Below, piece by piece: positions 8,543 to 37,981 of a DNA stretch of 40,806 nucleotides. The notes under the pieces are model-generated. The model was not told the origin of the DNA, did no database searches, and saw only the letters and a program-made list of their open reading frames with translations. Source of the DNA: a virus; the IMG/VR virus record IMGVR_UViG_3300019880_000004, positions 1 through 40,806 of that record, one strand, 5' to 3'. The translations under genes and the position numbers were made by a program. The first letter of the stretch is position 1; the number at the start of each line of letters is the position of its first letter.

Positions 8543-9622
8543 GTGGGGGATATTCTTTTTTGTGATTTTGAAACACGCTCGCCCGTAGATATTAAAAAGG
8601 CAGGTGCCGATGTGTACGCTAGAGACCCACATGCTCGTGTTATGGCCTTTGGCTATTGTTTCAATGATGATAACGTTACAGTTAATAAAATGGGTCAGGC
8701 GCCTCCCGCTAAAGTTATCGACCATGTTAGAAGTGGCGGTTATGTGGTGGCCCATAATGCACCTTTTGAATGGGTTATTTGGAATTATTGCTGGCGTCGT
8801 GAATTTTATCTTCCAGAAATAAAAATAGAACAAATGATTTGCACCATGAGCATGGCTTACGCGTGTGGTTTACCAGGATCTTTAGAAAAATCTTCCGCAG
8901 CTGCGGGCATTGATATGCAAAAAGACATGCAAGGCAATAGGATCATGCTTCAATTAGCGGCGCCAAAAGAAGGACCGACATTTTGGGGCACTTATTTATG
9001 GCACGAACCAGAAATATTCGAAGAAAAATTCAATAGAATGTATGAATATTGCGCAAAAGACGTAGAAGTCGAACGGAAACTTTACAAAAGACTAGTTCAA
9101 CTTTCTCCAAACGAAAAACAAATTTGGTATTTAGATCATAAGATAAACCAGCGCGGCGTCTATATAGACATACCCTCAGTTAGAAATGCACTCGAACTCG
9201 TAGAATTTGAACGCAAACGTCTTAATAAACGAATGCAAGATATTACTAATGGAGCCGTGGCCACATGTAATGCAACAAAGCAACTCACGGATTGGATTCT
9301 AGACCAAGGAGTTAAAGTCGAAAGTATAGCAAAGGCTGATATATTAGAACTCTTAAACGAAATTACTTTGCCCGATAACATTAGGGAAGCTTTACTAACA
9401 CGACAAGAAGCGGCCAAATCTTCTAACGCAAAACTTCAAAGTATGATTGAGTCAGTTTGTGATGACAATCGTGCCCGATCATTGTTTCAATATCATGGTG
9501 CAGGTACAGGTAGATGGGCAGGACGCAGAATTCAGGTACAGAATTTACCCCGCTCAAAAATAAGTTTAAAAGAAATCGAAGGGGTAATTGGGTTACTAAA
9601 TGGGGACGGAAATAATTTTTAG
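8543..9622 (+). CDS. family A DNA polymerase, N-terminal part (3'-5' exonuclease and thumb)
   Basis: This 359-residue frame holds the first half of a phage family A polymerase. Exo I is CDFETRS with Asp8/Glu10, Exo II is VVAHNAPFEWVIW, and Exo III is YCAKDVEVERKL. Then come a thumb-like region and polymerase motif 1, GAGTGRWAGRRIQVQNLP. It stops at 9622, just before the palm motif A expected next. The start is GTG 8543, with AGGGG upstream at long spacing. The next frame (9754-10674) supplies motifs A, B and C. Together they total 665 residues, about the length I expect of undivided relatives. Either the enzyme is a two-subunit polymerase or the gene has been interrupted. Confidence 0.85.
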   Translation: MGDILFCDFETRSPVDIKKAGADVYARDPHARVMAFGYCFNDDNVTVNKMGQAPPAKVIDHVRSGGYVVAHNAPFEWVIWNYCWRREFYLPEIKIEQMICTMSMAYACGLPGSLEKSSAAAGIDMQKDMQGNRIMLQLAAPKEGPTFWGTYLWHEPEIFEEKFNRMYEYCAKDVEVERKLYKRLVQLSPNEKQIWYLDHKINQRGVYIDIPSVRNALELVEFERKRLNKRMQDITNGAVATCNATKQLTDWILDQGVKVESIAKADILELLNEITLPDNIREALLTRQEAAKSSNAKLQSMIESVCDDNRARSLFQYHGAGTGRWAGRRIQVQNLPRSKISLKEIEGVIGLLNGDGNNF

Positions 9623-9764
9623 GGGCGATAAAACTTTAGACGAAATCGTAAAAGAATTAAAAAAAATTTTAGAAACCCAAAGTATGGTTGTTGGGATTTG
9701 CGAGATCGATGAGTTTTTCTTAGAAATTACTTTGATGAAACGGGATGAACTAGATGAACACTGA
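9600..9764 (+). CDS. 54-aa ORF between the two polymerase halves
   Basis: ATG 9600 lies inside the 3' end of the N-terminal polymerase frame, and the TGA at 9762-9764 lies 11 bases into the C-terminal frame. The product reads like a small alpha/beta protein: [20 protein letters not shown], then a segment ending [16 protein letters not shown]. It has no match I recognise. Its span coincides with the extra DNA separating two otherwise complete polymerase halves. It may be an inserted small gene, possibly one that keeps the halves separate. There is no strong SD at usual spacing. Confidence 0.5.
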
Positions 9765-10674
9765 GGGGATAAGAAATGAAATTGATCTTTTATATGGTCC
9801 TCCTCTCAGTATTATTTCTGATTGTATTCGTAGTTTTATCTGCGCTCCTCCTGGATACGATTTAATTGTATGCGATTATGCTAACATTGAAGGTCGAGTA
9901 TTAGCGTGGCTCGCCAACGAAACCTGGAAAATAAAAGCTTTTGAAGATTTCGATAAAAAAGCGGGTCCCGATATTTATATTCTTTCAGCCCAAAGAATGG
10001 GTCTTACCGACAGACAAATCGGTAAAGTTGCAGAACTTGCACTCGGGTATCAAGGTGGAGTAAACGCTTTTAAAAACATGGCTAAAATATATGGCCTTGT
10101 TATTGAAGATTCAAAAGCGGACTCAATAAAAAAAGCTTGGCGTTCTGCACACCCCCACATAAAAAAATATTGGTACGATTTAGAGAATGCGGCCATTAGA
10201 GCCGTAACAAACCCCGGCACGACACAAGCGGTAGTTACTCAAAACGCTACAATAAAATACCGCGTTGCAGGTTCGTTTTTATGGTGTTCACTTCCCTCAA
10301 AACGTGTGATTGCATACCCCTACCCAAAAATAGAACAAGTAAAAACACCTTGGGGTGAAATGAAGGACGCTTTTACTTATAATGGGGAGAATTCGCTTAC
10401 AAAACAGTGGGAGCGAATGACGGCATACGGGGGGCTTTTGGCAGAAAACATCACGCAAGCAGTAGCACGAGACGTACTTGCTCAAGCATTAATAAATTTA
10501 GAAAATAATAATTATAGCGTTGTTATGCACGTACACGACGAAATTGTTGTAGAGAGAGAAGAAGGTTTCGGTGCATTGGATGATATGAAATTTCATATGA
10601 AACGCATGAATCCGTGGGCAAAAGGACTTCCAATTGCTGTCGAAGGATATCGCGCTAAAAGGTATCGCAAATGA
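9754..10674 (+). CDS. family A DNA polymerase, C-terminal part (palm and fingers)
   Basis: This 306-residue frame carries the polymerase active site. Motif A is [17 protein letters not shown] with Asp41. Motif B is in the fingers helix, [17 protein letters not shown] (Arg87, Lys91, Tyr99). Motif C is [12 protein letters not shown] near the C-terminus, with the catalytic Asp in HDE. The first 36 residues ([17 protein letters not shown] onward) match the segment that normally precedes motif A, so nothing essential seems lost at the split. ATG 9754 has GGGATGAACTAG upstream. Its stop overlaps the primase-helicase start (ATGA). It needs the exonuclease half for proofreading and thumb contacts. 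Confidence 0.85.
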
Positions 10675-13394: not shown

Positions 13395-14291
13395 ATGAAA
13401 ATGAAACTAACGATAAATGATCTTTTTATGTCTGCCTTAACTCACCATTGGAATGCCGAACGTTATAAAAAATCAGGATGGGCAAAAGAAGTAGAGAGGA
13501 TTTATGCTTCAAAAATTATTAATAGCTTTGGTTTTATTGAAATTACAAGAGTTAAGGCAAAAGATATTAGAAATTGGCATAAAGATCTTATGGAAACTCC
13601 CGTAGAGGCTAATCGGGCTTTAAATGTCTTATCAAAACTTTTTTCATACGCGGAAGAACAAGAAATAATCCCGCAAAACCAAAACCCTTGCAAATTAGTA
13701 AAGCCACATAGAGAAAAGAAACGTAAGCGTTTTGCCACACCTGAGGAGTTAAAAAAGATTCTAGACAGGTTAGAGATCAATAAAGAATCAAATCCAAAAG
13801 CAGTGCTATTTATTTATCTTTTGATTTTTAGTGGAGCAAGGCCTCGGTCAATTGAACGCGCTAAATGGTCACAACTAAAAACCTTAGACCATGACGGCGA
13901 AATGTTCGGTCTTCTTACCTTTGATGGCAAATCTACAAGCTCAACTGGCGAAGATGAACAAGTTATTATTCCACCTATTGCAATGGAATTACTTGTAAAA
14001 ACTATCCCTACAGAGGACGCATTAGTCGGAATAAAAATGCCGCGAGATTTTTGGGATAAAATACGTAAAGAAGCGGGCTGCGCCGATCTATGGGCTCGTG
14101 ATTTAAGGCGCACTTTTGCAACAATAGGTTTATCAAACGGCGAATCAAGTGGCGTTATAGGTGAACTTCTTAATCATAAGTCTGCGGATACTACTAAAAT
14201 TTACACACAACTTCTTCAAACTAAAAAGATTGAGACAACTAAAAATATCGCCGCTACAATCCATGGCTTTTTAAAGATAGGTGTAAAATGA
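13395..14291 (+). CDS. int: tyrosine recombinase (integrase)
   Basis: This 298-residue protein has an N-terminal SAM-like core-binding domain (about 1-105) and a catalytic domain. Residues visible: Arg149 in SGARPRSIE, a candidate Lys179 in FDGKS, Arg238 in ARDLRRTFAT, His261 in LNHKSADTT, and the Tyr270 nucleophile in KIYTQLL. The box II His of the usual HDLRRTF is Arg235 here. It should integrate the circular genome at a host att site, which marks the phage as temperate. ATG 13395 follows GGGGGACCGC. No excisionase is recognisable, though the small gene after it (ATGA overlap) is in the right place. attP cannot be located without host sequence. Confidence 0.88.
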   Translation: MKMKLTINDLFMSALTHHWNAERYKKSGWAKEVERIYASKIINSFGFIEITRVKAKDIRNWHKDLMETPVEANRALNVLSKLFSYAEEQEIIPQNQNPCKLVKPHREKKRKRFATPEELKKILDRLEINKESNPKAVLFIYLLIFSGARPRSIERAKWSQLKTLDHDGEMFGLLTFDGKSTSSTGEDEQVIIPPIAMELLVKTIPTEDALVGIKMPRDFWDKIRKEAGCADLWARDLRRTFATIGLSNGESSGVIGELLNHKSADTTKIYTQLLQTKKIETTKNIAATIHGFLKIGVK

Positions 14292-14563: not shown

Positions 14564-14852
14564 TAGTAGGTTTACCGTCATTTCTGGGGTAGCTTGATTG
14601 CATATAATCTATAATTTCTTTTACTTGCTCGTCAGTATAGAGCCTACCGCCCTCGAATTCGTTTCTAACATCAAATGCACGGTTTGCTTCATGCACACCG
14701 CTATCACCACAAATGTGCTCTTTAACCCTCGTAATGATAAGCTCTTGACTGAACTTTTCCCTACAAAATAGATCCATATGCATAGCCATGTCTTGTAAAA
14801 ATATAGTAACAGATTCGAACTCTTTTTCTATATCGGGGGATTTAAACTTCAT
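14469..14852 (-). CDS. M15-family peptidase, probable endolysin
   Basis: The 127-residue protein fits a minimal M15 zinc peptidase. The metal motif is GDSGVHEANRAFDVRNE (His54, Asp61), and the final metal ligand lies in YHLHVQI (His108/His110). Such enzymes cut peptide bonds in the peptidoglycan stem (D-Ala-D-Ala carboxypeptidase or L-Ala-D-Glu endopeptidase), and in phages they are endolysins. The start chosen is ATG 14852, inside the stop of the upstream gene with AGGA ahead; an in-frame ATG at 14882 would add ten basic residues. No signal peptide is visible, so a holin is needed. It is the last gene of the late unit and overlaps the rightward unit by 95 bp. Confidence 0.82.
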   Translation of the reverse strand: MKFKSPDIEKEFESVTIFLQDMAMHMDLFCREKFSQELIITRVKEHICGDSGVHEANRAFDVRNEFEGGRLYTDEQVKEIIDYMQSSYPRNDGKPTIIHHSFAGGPYHLHVQIALETTTYAPMGTQH

Positions 14853-15030
14853 CTTTTTCCTGCTTATTTTTTTGTTTTTCACTTCCGAATAAATCTAAAG
14901 CGCTATCCTTAACTCCGCCAGACAGTAGTTCTTTAGCGGACTGAGTAGCTGCAGCACCCGATAAAGAAGACGTAGAATCAGGACTTTCTAATTCATAATC
15001 AGGATTTAAACTATCTAATTTCTTTTTCAT
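14842..15030 (-). CDS. hypothetical protein, 62 aa, lysis cassette
   Basis: This is a hydrophilic 62-residue protein (MKKKLDSLNPDYELESPDST, Ser/Ala-rich middle, Lys-rich end) without membrane or signal sequence. Its start overlaps the previous stop (ATGA) and its end overlaps the M15 start. It is not recognised. Position suggests late expression with the lysis genes, or a minor structural role. Confidence 0.5.
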   Translation of the reverse strand: MKKKLDSLNPDYELESPDSTSSLSGAAATQSAKELLSGGVKDSALDLFGSEKQKNKQEKDEV

Positions 15031-35663: not shown

Positions 35664-37199
35664 TCACTCAAACATATTATAATTAACGTCTTTTGCTTGT
35701 CTAGATCCTTTTCTTGAAGTACCTGATGCTAAATCGGCCCGGGCGACTTGAACAGCAAAAGTACAGGCTAATGCGTCACCGTGGTCTGGGGATGATAGCC
35801 CGCGCTTTTTCATTTCTTCTTTTGACTCTAAAATCAATTGATCACTCCGGGCCATAAACTTATATTGTGGGCCCGTTAAGTCATCGGTTAGTTCTTGTAA
35901 ATTATCAATAGTGCCGCCTTTAAGCCAATCACGCATTTTAGCCCAAAGTTCGGTCCTTTTGTTGCCCCACTCATTGATCTCAGACTTTGATCCAAACCAC
36001 ACTTCGTAAACTTTGTATTTCATTTCTCGTAAACGATCTATGATGCCGGTACCATTACCGGCATCGATACATACGGCATCGGGGTTATATTTATTTATTA
36101 GCTCAGCACATTTATTTGCCACTTGCATGTTGTCTTGATGTTTTAAAGTGATCGGTGCAATAACCTTACCGTTGCGTCCTTGTCGGAAGCGGATAACGGT
36201 TGAATCGTCTCCATATCTCGCTGGATCAACTCCCATAATAAGCGCTGCGTGCATATCAGTTTGTATTTCTCTTTGCGTGGCATCAACGACAATTTCTCTA
36301 GAAATGAATTGGTTATCACCTTGTCTTGGGAATTCACCTTTAACTTCAACTCGCGACTCATCAGAATCTTCTCCGTGTTCTTTTATAATTTGATCATATA
36401 CTGCTCGATCTGTGCCTTCAACGGTTCGAGAATCGAGATATCTTCTATTCCAGAAATCTCGATTTTTATGGAAGCATTCAAAGAATTCTCCCGTATTTCG
36501 TCGACCGTTACTAAAAGCGAATTGAAATCGGTAGATGCTAAGTTCTGTAAAAAATCCCGCAGCGACAGTCCAGATTGGTTTAGGTATACCAGATGCCTCA
36601 TCAAAAATCACCATCATGCCTTTTTGGTTGTGAGCTCCCGCAAAACTTTCTGGATTTTCTTCCGACCACAGTTGTGCGTGAGCGTAATAATATGTTGGAT
36701 CTATTTGCAATTGTTTTTTTAGCGCATCCGCAAACCAGGCCGCCGGTTGAAGATGTGTAGAAGATCTATCAAACCAATGCGCATTAATTAATAAGGTATG
36801 CCAAGTCCCTAGCTCTGCCCAGGTTTTTGTCTTCAATTGATCTTCTGAGTTCGCAGTTATAATGGACGAGGCCCCCAGGTGACAACTCATGTGCCAAGAA
36901 ATAAGCCAGGCAACCAAAGCAGATTTGCCCACTCCACGACCAGAAACTGTCGCTGACTTGTAGACACTCGGATTTTGCCCATTTATTTTCTTTAATTTGT
37001 TTTCTTCTAGGTGCTTTTTTATTCTTAAGAGTTCTTCTTTTTGCCATTCTCTGGGTCCTGTGTGGTGTTCTAATGGCGTGCCTTTTTTACCCCAAGGGAA
37101 TGCGAACATTACAAACGCATATGGGTCGTCCGCAATTTCTTGCGACCATAAAGCAGCCATTAATTGTTTCTCTTGTAGGGAATCTGTACCGCGTGACAC
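35664..37199 (-). CDS. terminase large subunit (TerL)
   Basis: The 511-residue protein has an ATPase domain with Walker A SGRGVGKS (86-93) and Walker B VIFDEA (197-202). The RNase H-like nuclease domain has IMGVDPARYGDDST (Asp325), DAVCIDAGNGTG (Asp379) and PDHGDALACTF (Asp472/Asp475). It packages DNA into the prohead and cuts concatemers, with TerS choosing the site. The start is GTG 37199 in a TAGTG overlap with the previous gene; an ATG at codon 14 is the alternative. It is followed by the small Pro-rich gene and portal. Confidence 0.92.
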   Translation of the reverse strand: MSRGTDSLQEKQLMAALWSQEIADDPYAFVMFAFPWGKKGTPLEHHTGPREWQKEELLRIKKHLEENKLKKINGQNPSVYKSATVSGRGVGKSALVAWLISWHMSCHLGASSIITANSEDQLKTKTWAELGTWHTLLINAHWFDRSSTHLQPAAWFADALKKQLQIDPTYYYAHAQLWSEENPESFAGAHNQKGMMVIFDEASGIPKPIWTVAAGFFTELSIYRFQFAFSNGRRNTGEFFECFHKNRDFWNRRYLDSRTVEGTDRAVYDQIIKEHGEDSDESRVEVKGEFPRQGDNQFISREIVVDATQREIQTDMHAALIMGVDPARYGDDSTVIRFRQGRNGKVIAPITLKHQDNMQVANKCAELINKYNPDAVCIDAGNGTGIIDRLREMKYKVYEVWFGSKSEINEWGNKRTELWAKMRDWLKGGTIDNLQELTDDLTGPQYKFMARSDQLILESKEEMKKRGLSSPDHGDALACTFAVQVARADLASGTSRKGSRQAKDVNYNMFE

Positions 37200-37447
37200 T
37201 ATTTAACCGGCGTCAGTTTCTTATCAACTTTTTTCTCGTGAGTAACAGTGTTGTGATAAAGGCATCGATCTTGATCTGCGGTAACATGTTCTTGTTTCGG
37301 ATCGGATACTAGGGTAACACACACGCCCATTACATTAAAATCTAACGGTGCCGGTACTTGAATATGCGTTGGCCTATGGCCTGTGATTGCTTCGTGAACT
37401 TCTATGCATCTTTTAATGTGACCCCAATTAAATAGATTTACTTCCAT
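37199..37447 (-). CDS. hypothetical protein, 82 aa, before TerL
   Basis: ATG 37447 is chosen for GGGAGGGGTTA upstream (an earlier in-frame ATG at 37465 lies before that SD). The product starts MEVNLFNWGHIKRCIEVHEA, with THIQVPAPLDFNVMGVCVTL in the middle and a Lys-rich C-terminus; it contains His and Cys residues but no clear metal motif. Its TAG overlaps the TerL GTG. It is not recognised. Confidence 0.6.
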   Translation of the reverse strand: MEVNLFNWGHIKRCIEVHEAITGHRPTHIQVPAPLDFNVMGVCVTLVSDPKQEHVTADQDRCLYHNTVTHEKKVDKKLTPVK

Positions 37448-37492
37448 TAACCCCTCCCACCACATGTGAGAAGGCTAAATCAGGACTAAGGG

Positions 37493-37639
37493 TTATTCAA
37501 GCCAAAAGAATTTAGGCCCTTTTCTTACGAAATGCGCCGTACTACCTAGGGTCATTAATATTATTGCCGCTTGAAAATACGTATTGGTTAGTTCAAAATA
37601 ATGTGTGTAGTGTGTTATATCATAAAGATAAATTTGCAT
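37493..37639 (-). CDS. 48-aa membrane-type peptide, divergent partner
   Basis: ATG 37639 on the minus strand has GGAG at 5-nt spacing, and that SD is part of a palindrome that also serves the plus-strand gene at 37660. The peptide has aromatic residues at the N-terminus (MQIYLYDITHYTHYF) and a hydrophobic stretch (FQAAIILMTLGSTAHFV) ending in a basic tail. Not recognised. A longer frame (ATG 37675) would read through the shared SD and is less likely. Confidence 0.5.
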   Translation of the reverse strand: MQIYLYDITHYTHYFELTNTYFQAAIILMTLGSTAHFVRKGPKFFWLE

Positions 37640-37644
37640 AATAA

Positions 37645-37652
37645 CTCCGGAG
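37645..37652. promoter_or_regulatory. palindromic Shine-Dalgarno shared by divergent genes
   Basis: CTCCGGAG at 37645-37652 is self-complementary. On the plus strand it extends to GGAGG ahead of ATG 37660; on the minus strand it gives GGAG ahead of ATG 37639. The two start codons are separated by only 20 bp, so each SD is the complement of the other. Confidence 0.65.
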
Positions 37653-37659
37653 GTTAAAG

Positions 37660-37821
37660 ATGCCATATGATCCAAAAAAAGCTAGGGATAGCGTCAATAA
37701 GGAATTCCAACTAGATGACAACAAAGGCGAGGACCAAATATCTGCCGGTATTAGTAAGGCGTGGGATGCGCTAACTGGAAAATCTTCCGACGATGCAGAT
37801 AAGAAAAAGAAAAAAGACTGA
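37660..37821 (+). CDS. 53-aa acidic/Lys protein on the opposite strand
   Basis: This is the only convincing plus-strand gene within the leftward late region. ATG 37660 has a near-perfect SD (CCGGAGGTTAAAG). The product (MPYDPKKARDSVNKEFQLDD, then ISAGISKAWDALTGKSS, ending in a Lys run) is hydrophilic. It converges with the ribbon-helix-helix gene (stops 1 bp apart) and diverges from the 48-aa gene. It would be antisense to late transcripts. A lysogeny- or early-phase role is possible; no homolog is recognised. Confidence 0.6.
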   Translation: MPYDPKKARDSVNKEFQLDDNKGEDQISAGISKAWDALTGKSSDDADKKKKKD

Positions 37822-37822
37822 T

Positions 37823-37981
37823 TCATTTGTTCTCCAAATGTTTTTCTAAAATATAACTTACAATCTTGTTGAAAGTTATGTTGTTGGCAGCGGCTCGTTT
37901 TTCTAGTTCTAAGAAAACAAATTCAGAGATGCGTATTGTTTTGGTTAATGACAGTGTCTTTTTTGGTATATTATATTTCAT
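37823..37981 (-). CDS. ribbon-helix-helix (Arc/MetJ-like) protein
   Basis: The 52-residue form from ATG 37981 (AAGGTT upstream) contains SLTKTIRISEFVFLELEKRA, then ITFNKIVSYILEKHLENK. This matches the beta-strand, helix, helix order of RHH DNA-binding dimers and the size of Arc. A TTG at 38038 would add 19 basic residues. It may repress a phage promoter. Its partner site is unknown; the adjacent small convergent gene recalls antitoxin-like neighbours, but there is no recognisable toxin. Confidence 0.65.
   Translation of the reverse strand: MKYNIPKKTLSLTKTIRISEFVFLELEKRAAANNITFNKIVSYILEKHLENK

Follow-up and report, generated by a model that had tools for sequence, protein, structure and literature searches.

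A probable small gene lying against the late operon of a podovirus, with back-to-back Shine-Dalgarno sequences at two divergent starts

The plus-strand reading frame P53 (37660..37821) is probably a real gene, and its start codon abuts that of a probable gene on the opposite strand, M48 (37493..37639), in such a way that the two Shine-Dalgarno (SD) sequences lie back to back. Our preferred explanation, which we hold with roughly even confidence, is that P53 is an accessory gene set against the late operon and passively excluded by read-through antisense transcription. Both frames lie in a virus record of 40,806 bases, analysed here over its full length (the window), that bears an integrase and is assigned to the podoviruses by its PHROG matches.

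The double Shine-Dalgarno element and P53

Positions 37637-37662 read CAT-AATAA-CTCCGGAG-GTTAAAG-ATG. On the plus side, GGAGG is followed after 6 nt by the ATG at 37660-37662, which opens a 53-aa ORF ending at 37821; on the minus side, GGAG is followed after 5 nt by the ATG at 37637-37639, which opens a 48-aa ORF ending at 37493. The palindrome CTCCGGAG at 37645..37652 comprises the GGAG of the plus-strand gene and the complement that serves as the GGAG of the minus-strand gene, and it sits inside an imperfect inverted repeat, TAAC-TCCGGAG-GTTA. The sequence is as described in the initial annotation, which had reported start codons 20 bp apart on opposite strands with one palindromic SD for both. 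The window holds a single copy of CTCCGGAG, where base composition predicts 0.22, and none of its other divergent ATG pairs spaced 10-45 bp apart has an SD core for each start. The annotation had also placed the start of each transcript necessarily inside the other gene or past it, which is slightly too strong, since a start inside the 20-bp gap is also possible. Unless a transcript begins in that gap, mRNA overlap follows from the start geometry: with starts 20 bp apart, 5' overlap is expected as soon as the leaders exceed about 20 nt, and RNAs that span both SD regions would have complementary 5' ends, as had been proposed.

P53 occupies a gap between two minus-strand genes and encodes a small hydrophilic protein with 12 K/R residues, 12 D/E residues and a lysine-rich tail. 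A model of position-specific base use, trained on 21 long genes and applied to all six frames, puts the P53 frame 14.3 nats ahead of the next best. Its codon score is 0.176 per codon, compared with a median of 0.155 for pieces of true genes and values below 0.051 for 95% of spurious ORFs. Because its synonymous codon choice is unlike that of the phage (-3.5), this coding signal stems mostly from amino-acid composition. The purine content of the plus strand over P53 is 0.648 versus 0.544 +/- 0.043 in the coding strands of the phage, and its GC content is similar to that of the phage. Among the eight plus-strand ORFs of at least 40 codons with an SD between 15.4 and 40.8 kb, P53 is the only one that starts with ATG and has the top coding score, supporting the earlier view of it as the sole convincing plus-strand gene of this region; the frame model and codon score likewise bear out its coding status. 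A small plus-strand gene of this kind could easily be missed by a gene finder.

Two base pairs after the P53 stop lies a terminator-like hairpin on the plus strand, CATTTG-TTCTC-CAAATG followed by TTTTTCT (37824..37847), which lies within the 3' end of the RHH gene described below. The hairpin is weak (-3.1 kcal/mol, z -4.2). In local 40-nt shuffles a hairpin of this kind arises in 1.3% of cases, and the window as a whole would be expected to contain about five on each strand. The best promoter match for P53 (9 of 12 positions, within M48) is not above chance. A single-sequence structure prediction gave two helices with a pLDDT of 70 and a pTM of 0.27, which is uninformative, and comparison of the predicted fold with viral folds gave no match. 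Separately, a 62-aa minus-strand late gene at 14842-15030 weakly resembles P53 and is a possible paralogue: it has the best Smith-Waterman score of 354 window ORFs, a score equalled by 4% of shuffles, and BLASTP returned nothing.

The gene that P53 faces, at 37823..37981 on the minus strand, encodes a 52-aa ribbon-helix-helix (RHH, Arc-like) protein that matches the Arc-like repressor family phrog_582 (E 2.4e-4); NCBIfam gave no match for it, and Pfam none to an RHH family. As initially annotated, the two genes face each other; they are arranged tail to tail with stops 1 bp apart. We considered CTCCGGAG as an operator for the RHH protein and rejected it: there is no second good copy, and the number of copies with three mismatches equals chance. 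With no second copy of the element to act as an operator, the suggestion that the RHH gene forms part of a switch gained no support.

Genome setting and proposed exclusion of P53

According to PHROG matches, the window carries the small terminase subunit gene terS on the minus strand (1151-1672), helicase, exonuclease, DNA polymerase and primase genes on the plus strand (4.4-12.8 kb), the integrase gene on the plus strand (13395-14291), and tail, capsid, portal and large-terminase genes on the minus strand (16 to 37.2 kb); small minus-strand genes occupy 37.2-40.8 kb. All mapped genes in 15-40.8 kb run leftward except P53, and the terminase, portal, major capsid protein (MCP) and tail genes share this direction. 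Between M48 and the large terminase gene lies an 82-aa minus-strand gene (37199..37447) with a GGGAGG SD and a frame preferred by 14.2 nats; the large terminase TerL (35664..37199, minus strand; phrog_2, E 1.6e-35) is the late-operon gene next downstream of it. A search for a terminal repeat shared by the record ends found none. If the record is circularly permuted, which we assume, the small minus-strand genes would lie between TerS and TerL in one leftward operon. No strict intrinsic terminator was found on the minus strand in 36-40.8 kb.

Two other features of the window were observed in passing. The DNA polymerase homology is split, such that the plus-strand ORFs at 8543-9622 and 9754-10674 match adjacent parts of phrog_17 (669-988 and 993-1230); a split gene, an intron and a frameshift are all candidates for the arrangement at 8543-10674. 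Also, the motif CTGGGAC occurs eight times in both orientations within 170 bp at 1797-1967, in an AT-rich stretch that separates the TerS gene, which runs leftward, from the early genes, which run rightward (10 copies in the window versus 2.1 expected); the copies may mark a cluster of operators or an origin of replication.

In our preferred explanation, P53 would be a small accessory, moron-like gene opposing the late operon within a variable cassette of small genes between TerS and TerL, and its start would abut that of the late-operon gene M48, the back-to-back SDs forming CTCCGGAG. Leftward late transcription begun kilobases upstream would cross P53 in antisense, and the late antisense RNA would lower P53 expression through RNA polymerase collision and duplex formation. 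P53 would then be made only while the late operon is quiet, i.e., early in infection or during lysogeny; its promoter would lie within M48 or past it, and its transcript would end at the hairpin past the stop. M48 itself probably lacks a promoter of its own nearby and is read from the late operon beginning kilobases upstream; its RNA would therefore be antisense to all of P53. Because such a read-through RNA would cover the whole of P53, the 8-bp SD overlap would add little, and passive exclusion is the simplest working model. Of the elements of this model, the start geometry, P53's coding signal and the hairpin sequence are observed; the two transcripts, their timing, the exclusion and the status of M48 as a gene are inferred.

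Relatives that could show whether this arrangement is kept are distant. The nearest have TerL proteins that are 63-64% identical (L001, MW202898.1); a search for closer relatives using the TerL, portal, MCP, 82-aa and RHH proteins yielded none above 64%, and the RHH protein had one distant match at 43%. For P53 and M48, no credible relative was found in IMG/VR peptide scans, in tblastn searches against phages with E values up to 10, in PHROGs, Pfam and NCBIfam, or across 181 loci; P53 additionally gave nothing credible in tblastn against plasmids and no match in 48 whole records of related, distant phages. The missing matches in the collections searched are not proof that P53 and M48 are orphans. 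In three annotated relatives (MW202898.1, OR003940.1 and MW202483.1), no gene running against its neighbours is annotated between a point shortly upstream of TerL and the far end of the structural genes.

Alternative readings of the pair

The case for M48 bears on several of the alternatives. This frame has a GGAG-5-ATG start and one moderately hydrophobic segment (residues 20-38), and the initial proposal of a minus-strand gene is plausible on the basis of SD spacing and of shuffles of the flank, in which an ATG 4-8 nt off the fixed CTCC opens an ORF of 48 codons or more in 0.3% of cases, and in 1.4% if any start at 3-10 nt is allowed. The proposal is less well served by the frame model, in which M48 is the best of six frames by only 2.1 nats, and by its neutral codon score (-0.015 per codon). 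We regard M48 as probably a gene, less surely so than P53. The same narrow frame margin and neutral codon score, together with the absence of a relative in our searches, would fit a reading in which there is no gene M48, the stretch 37448-37640 serves only as leader and promoter region for P53, and the minus-strand CTCC arose by chance; because so long an ORF correctly spaced from the CTCC complement is rare in the shuffles, we consider this reading rather unlikely. If M48 instead encoded a small hydrophobic toxin held in check by the P53 leader acting as antisense RNA, the pair would resemble a type I toxin-antitoxin system. M48 is indeed short with one hydrophobic stretch, and by geometry a plus-strand antisense RNA would cover its SD; yet its best 19-residue segment reaches a hydropathy of only 1.18, it matches no toxin family in PHROGs, Pfam or NCBIfam, and the opposite RNA encodes a protein, P53, rather than being a non-coding antitoxin, making this reading extremely unlikely. 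It is also very unlikely that P53 is spurious and that the minus strand is an unbroken operon in which a 68-aa ORF at 37620-37826 is the real gene. This ORF has a GGAG SD ahead of it and an ATGA overlap with the RHH stop, and a gene finder could choose it over P53; however, its frame scores 18-21 nats below P53, by which the frame model rules it out as a replacement for P53, its purine content of 0.372 is 4 sd under that of the genes of this phage, and its codon score is -0.112 per codon.

The initial annotation had favored a dedicated two-gene switch, in which short divergent mRNAs would pair at their complementary SD regions and block each other's translation. What speaks for it is that both SDs lie in one 8-bp palindrome within the 20 bp between the starts, that such a two-sided SD pair is unique in the window, and that divergent 5'-overlapping mRNAs form RNase III-cleaved duplexes in E. 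coli (PMC7373196). Beyond this geometry, the two divergent genes offered no support for a small switch. Two abutting SDs always give CTCC-GGAG and, therefore, the palindrome is inevitable and does not by itself argue for a regulatory device; folding of the two leaders is no stronger than that of shuffled sequences (z 0.76 and -0.29), so their structure is not unusual; promoter-like sites near the pair are not above chance; and M48 is probably carried on a long operon RNA rather than on a short divergent one. Taken together, we judge the dedicated switch improbable, and find it quite improbable that the palindromic double SD is itself regulatory, acting as a translation-level excludon that chooses which small phage protein is made. 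If the SDs truly excluded each other, hardly any excludon could be more compact, its essential overlap having shrunk to the ribosome-binding sites. In our preferred explanation of passive exclusion, the palindrome is a by-product of tight packing, and the case as it stands mainly shows how phages pack divergent genes, with the SD palindrome as an expected by-product rather than a signal.

Recurrence of the layout and comparison with known systems

The same 26-bp layout is present at 79 other sites in IMG/VR, and at least two of these look like true gene pairs, in unrelated viruses. In one, a Prim-Pol gene (PF09250, E 2.5e-40) lies opposite a 62-aa gene, and this conserved divergent pair with the CTCCGGAG layout is kept in four records (L211:8950-11440, and also L222, L230 and L250); because four records exist, this pair is the better test subject. 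In the other (L206/L259), a DUF3310 gene (PF11753, E 2.3e-15) lies opposite a 309-aa ORF. Both pairs are like P53/M48 in having the identical 26-bp layout with two starts and the palindrome, and differ from it in that the proteins and the viruses are unrelated. Both ORFs reach at least 40 codons at 15 of the 79 CTCCGGAG sites versus 9.6% of control ATG pairs, a difference that amounts to no clear two-sided ORF enrichment because several hits copy one locus.

The layout of P53/M48 is of an already known kind. Bacteria commonly have divergent transcripts that overlap at their 5' ends. The divergent excludon is a concept from Listeria, and in Dickeya dadantii 63 putative cases with 5' overlap have been described (PMC9239193); in E. 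coli, divergent 5'-overlapping transcripts are the commonest class among the top duplex-forming coding loci (PMC7373196). P53 and M48 are likewise divergent units with starts close enough for 5' overlap, such that their transcripts would overlap at the 5' ends and mutual antagonism is possible. The pair differs from the described excludons in that it is known from sequence geometry only and in that its overlap would extend as far as the SDs and start codons themselves.

A phage moron is an independent gene inside a late operon. P53 is like a moron in that it is lone and small, opposes the late operon, is followed by a weak hairpin that may be a terminator of its own and has no counterpart in relatives, being absent from the same place in related phages, which are distant ones. 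It is unlike a moron in that no convincing promoter was found for it and its base composition is phage-like. As a putative moron, P53 would thus be so named from its orientation and its absence in relatives only.
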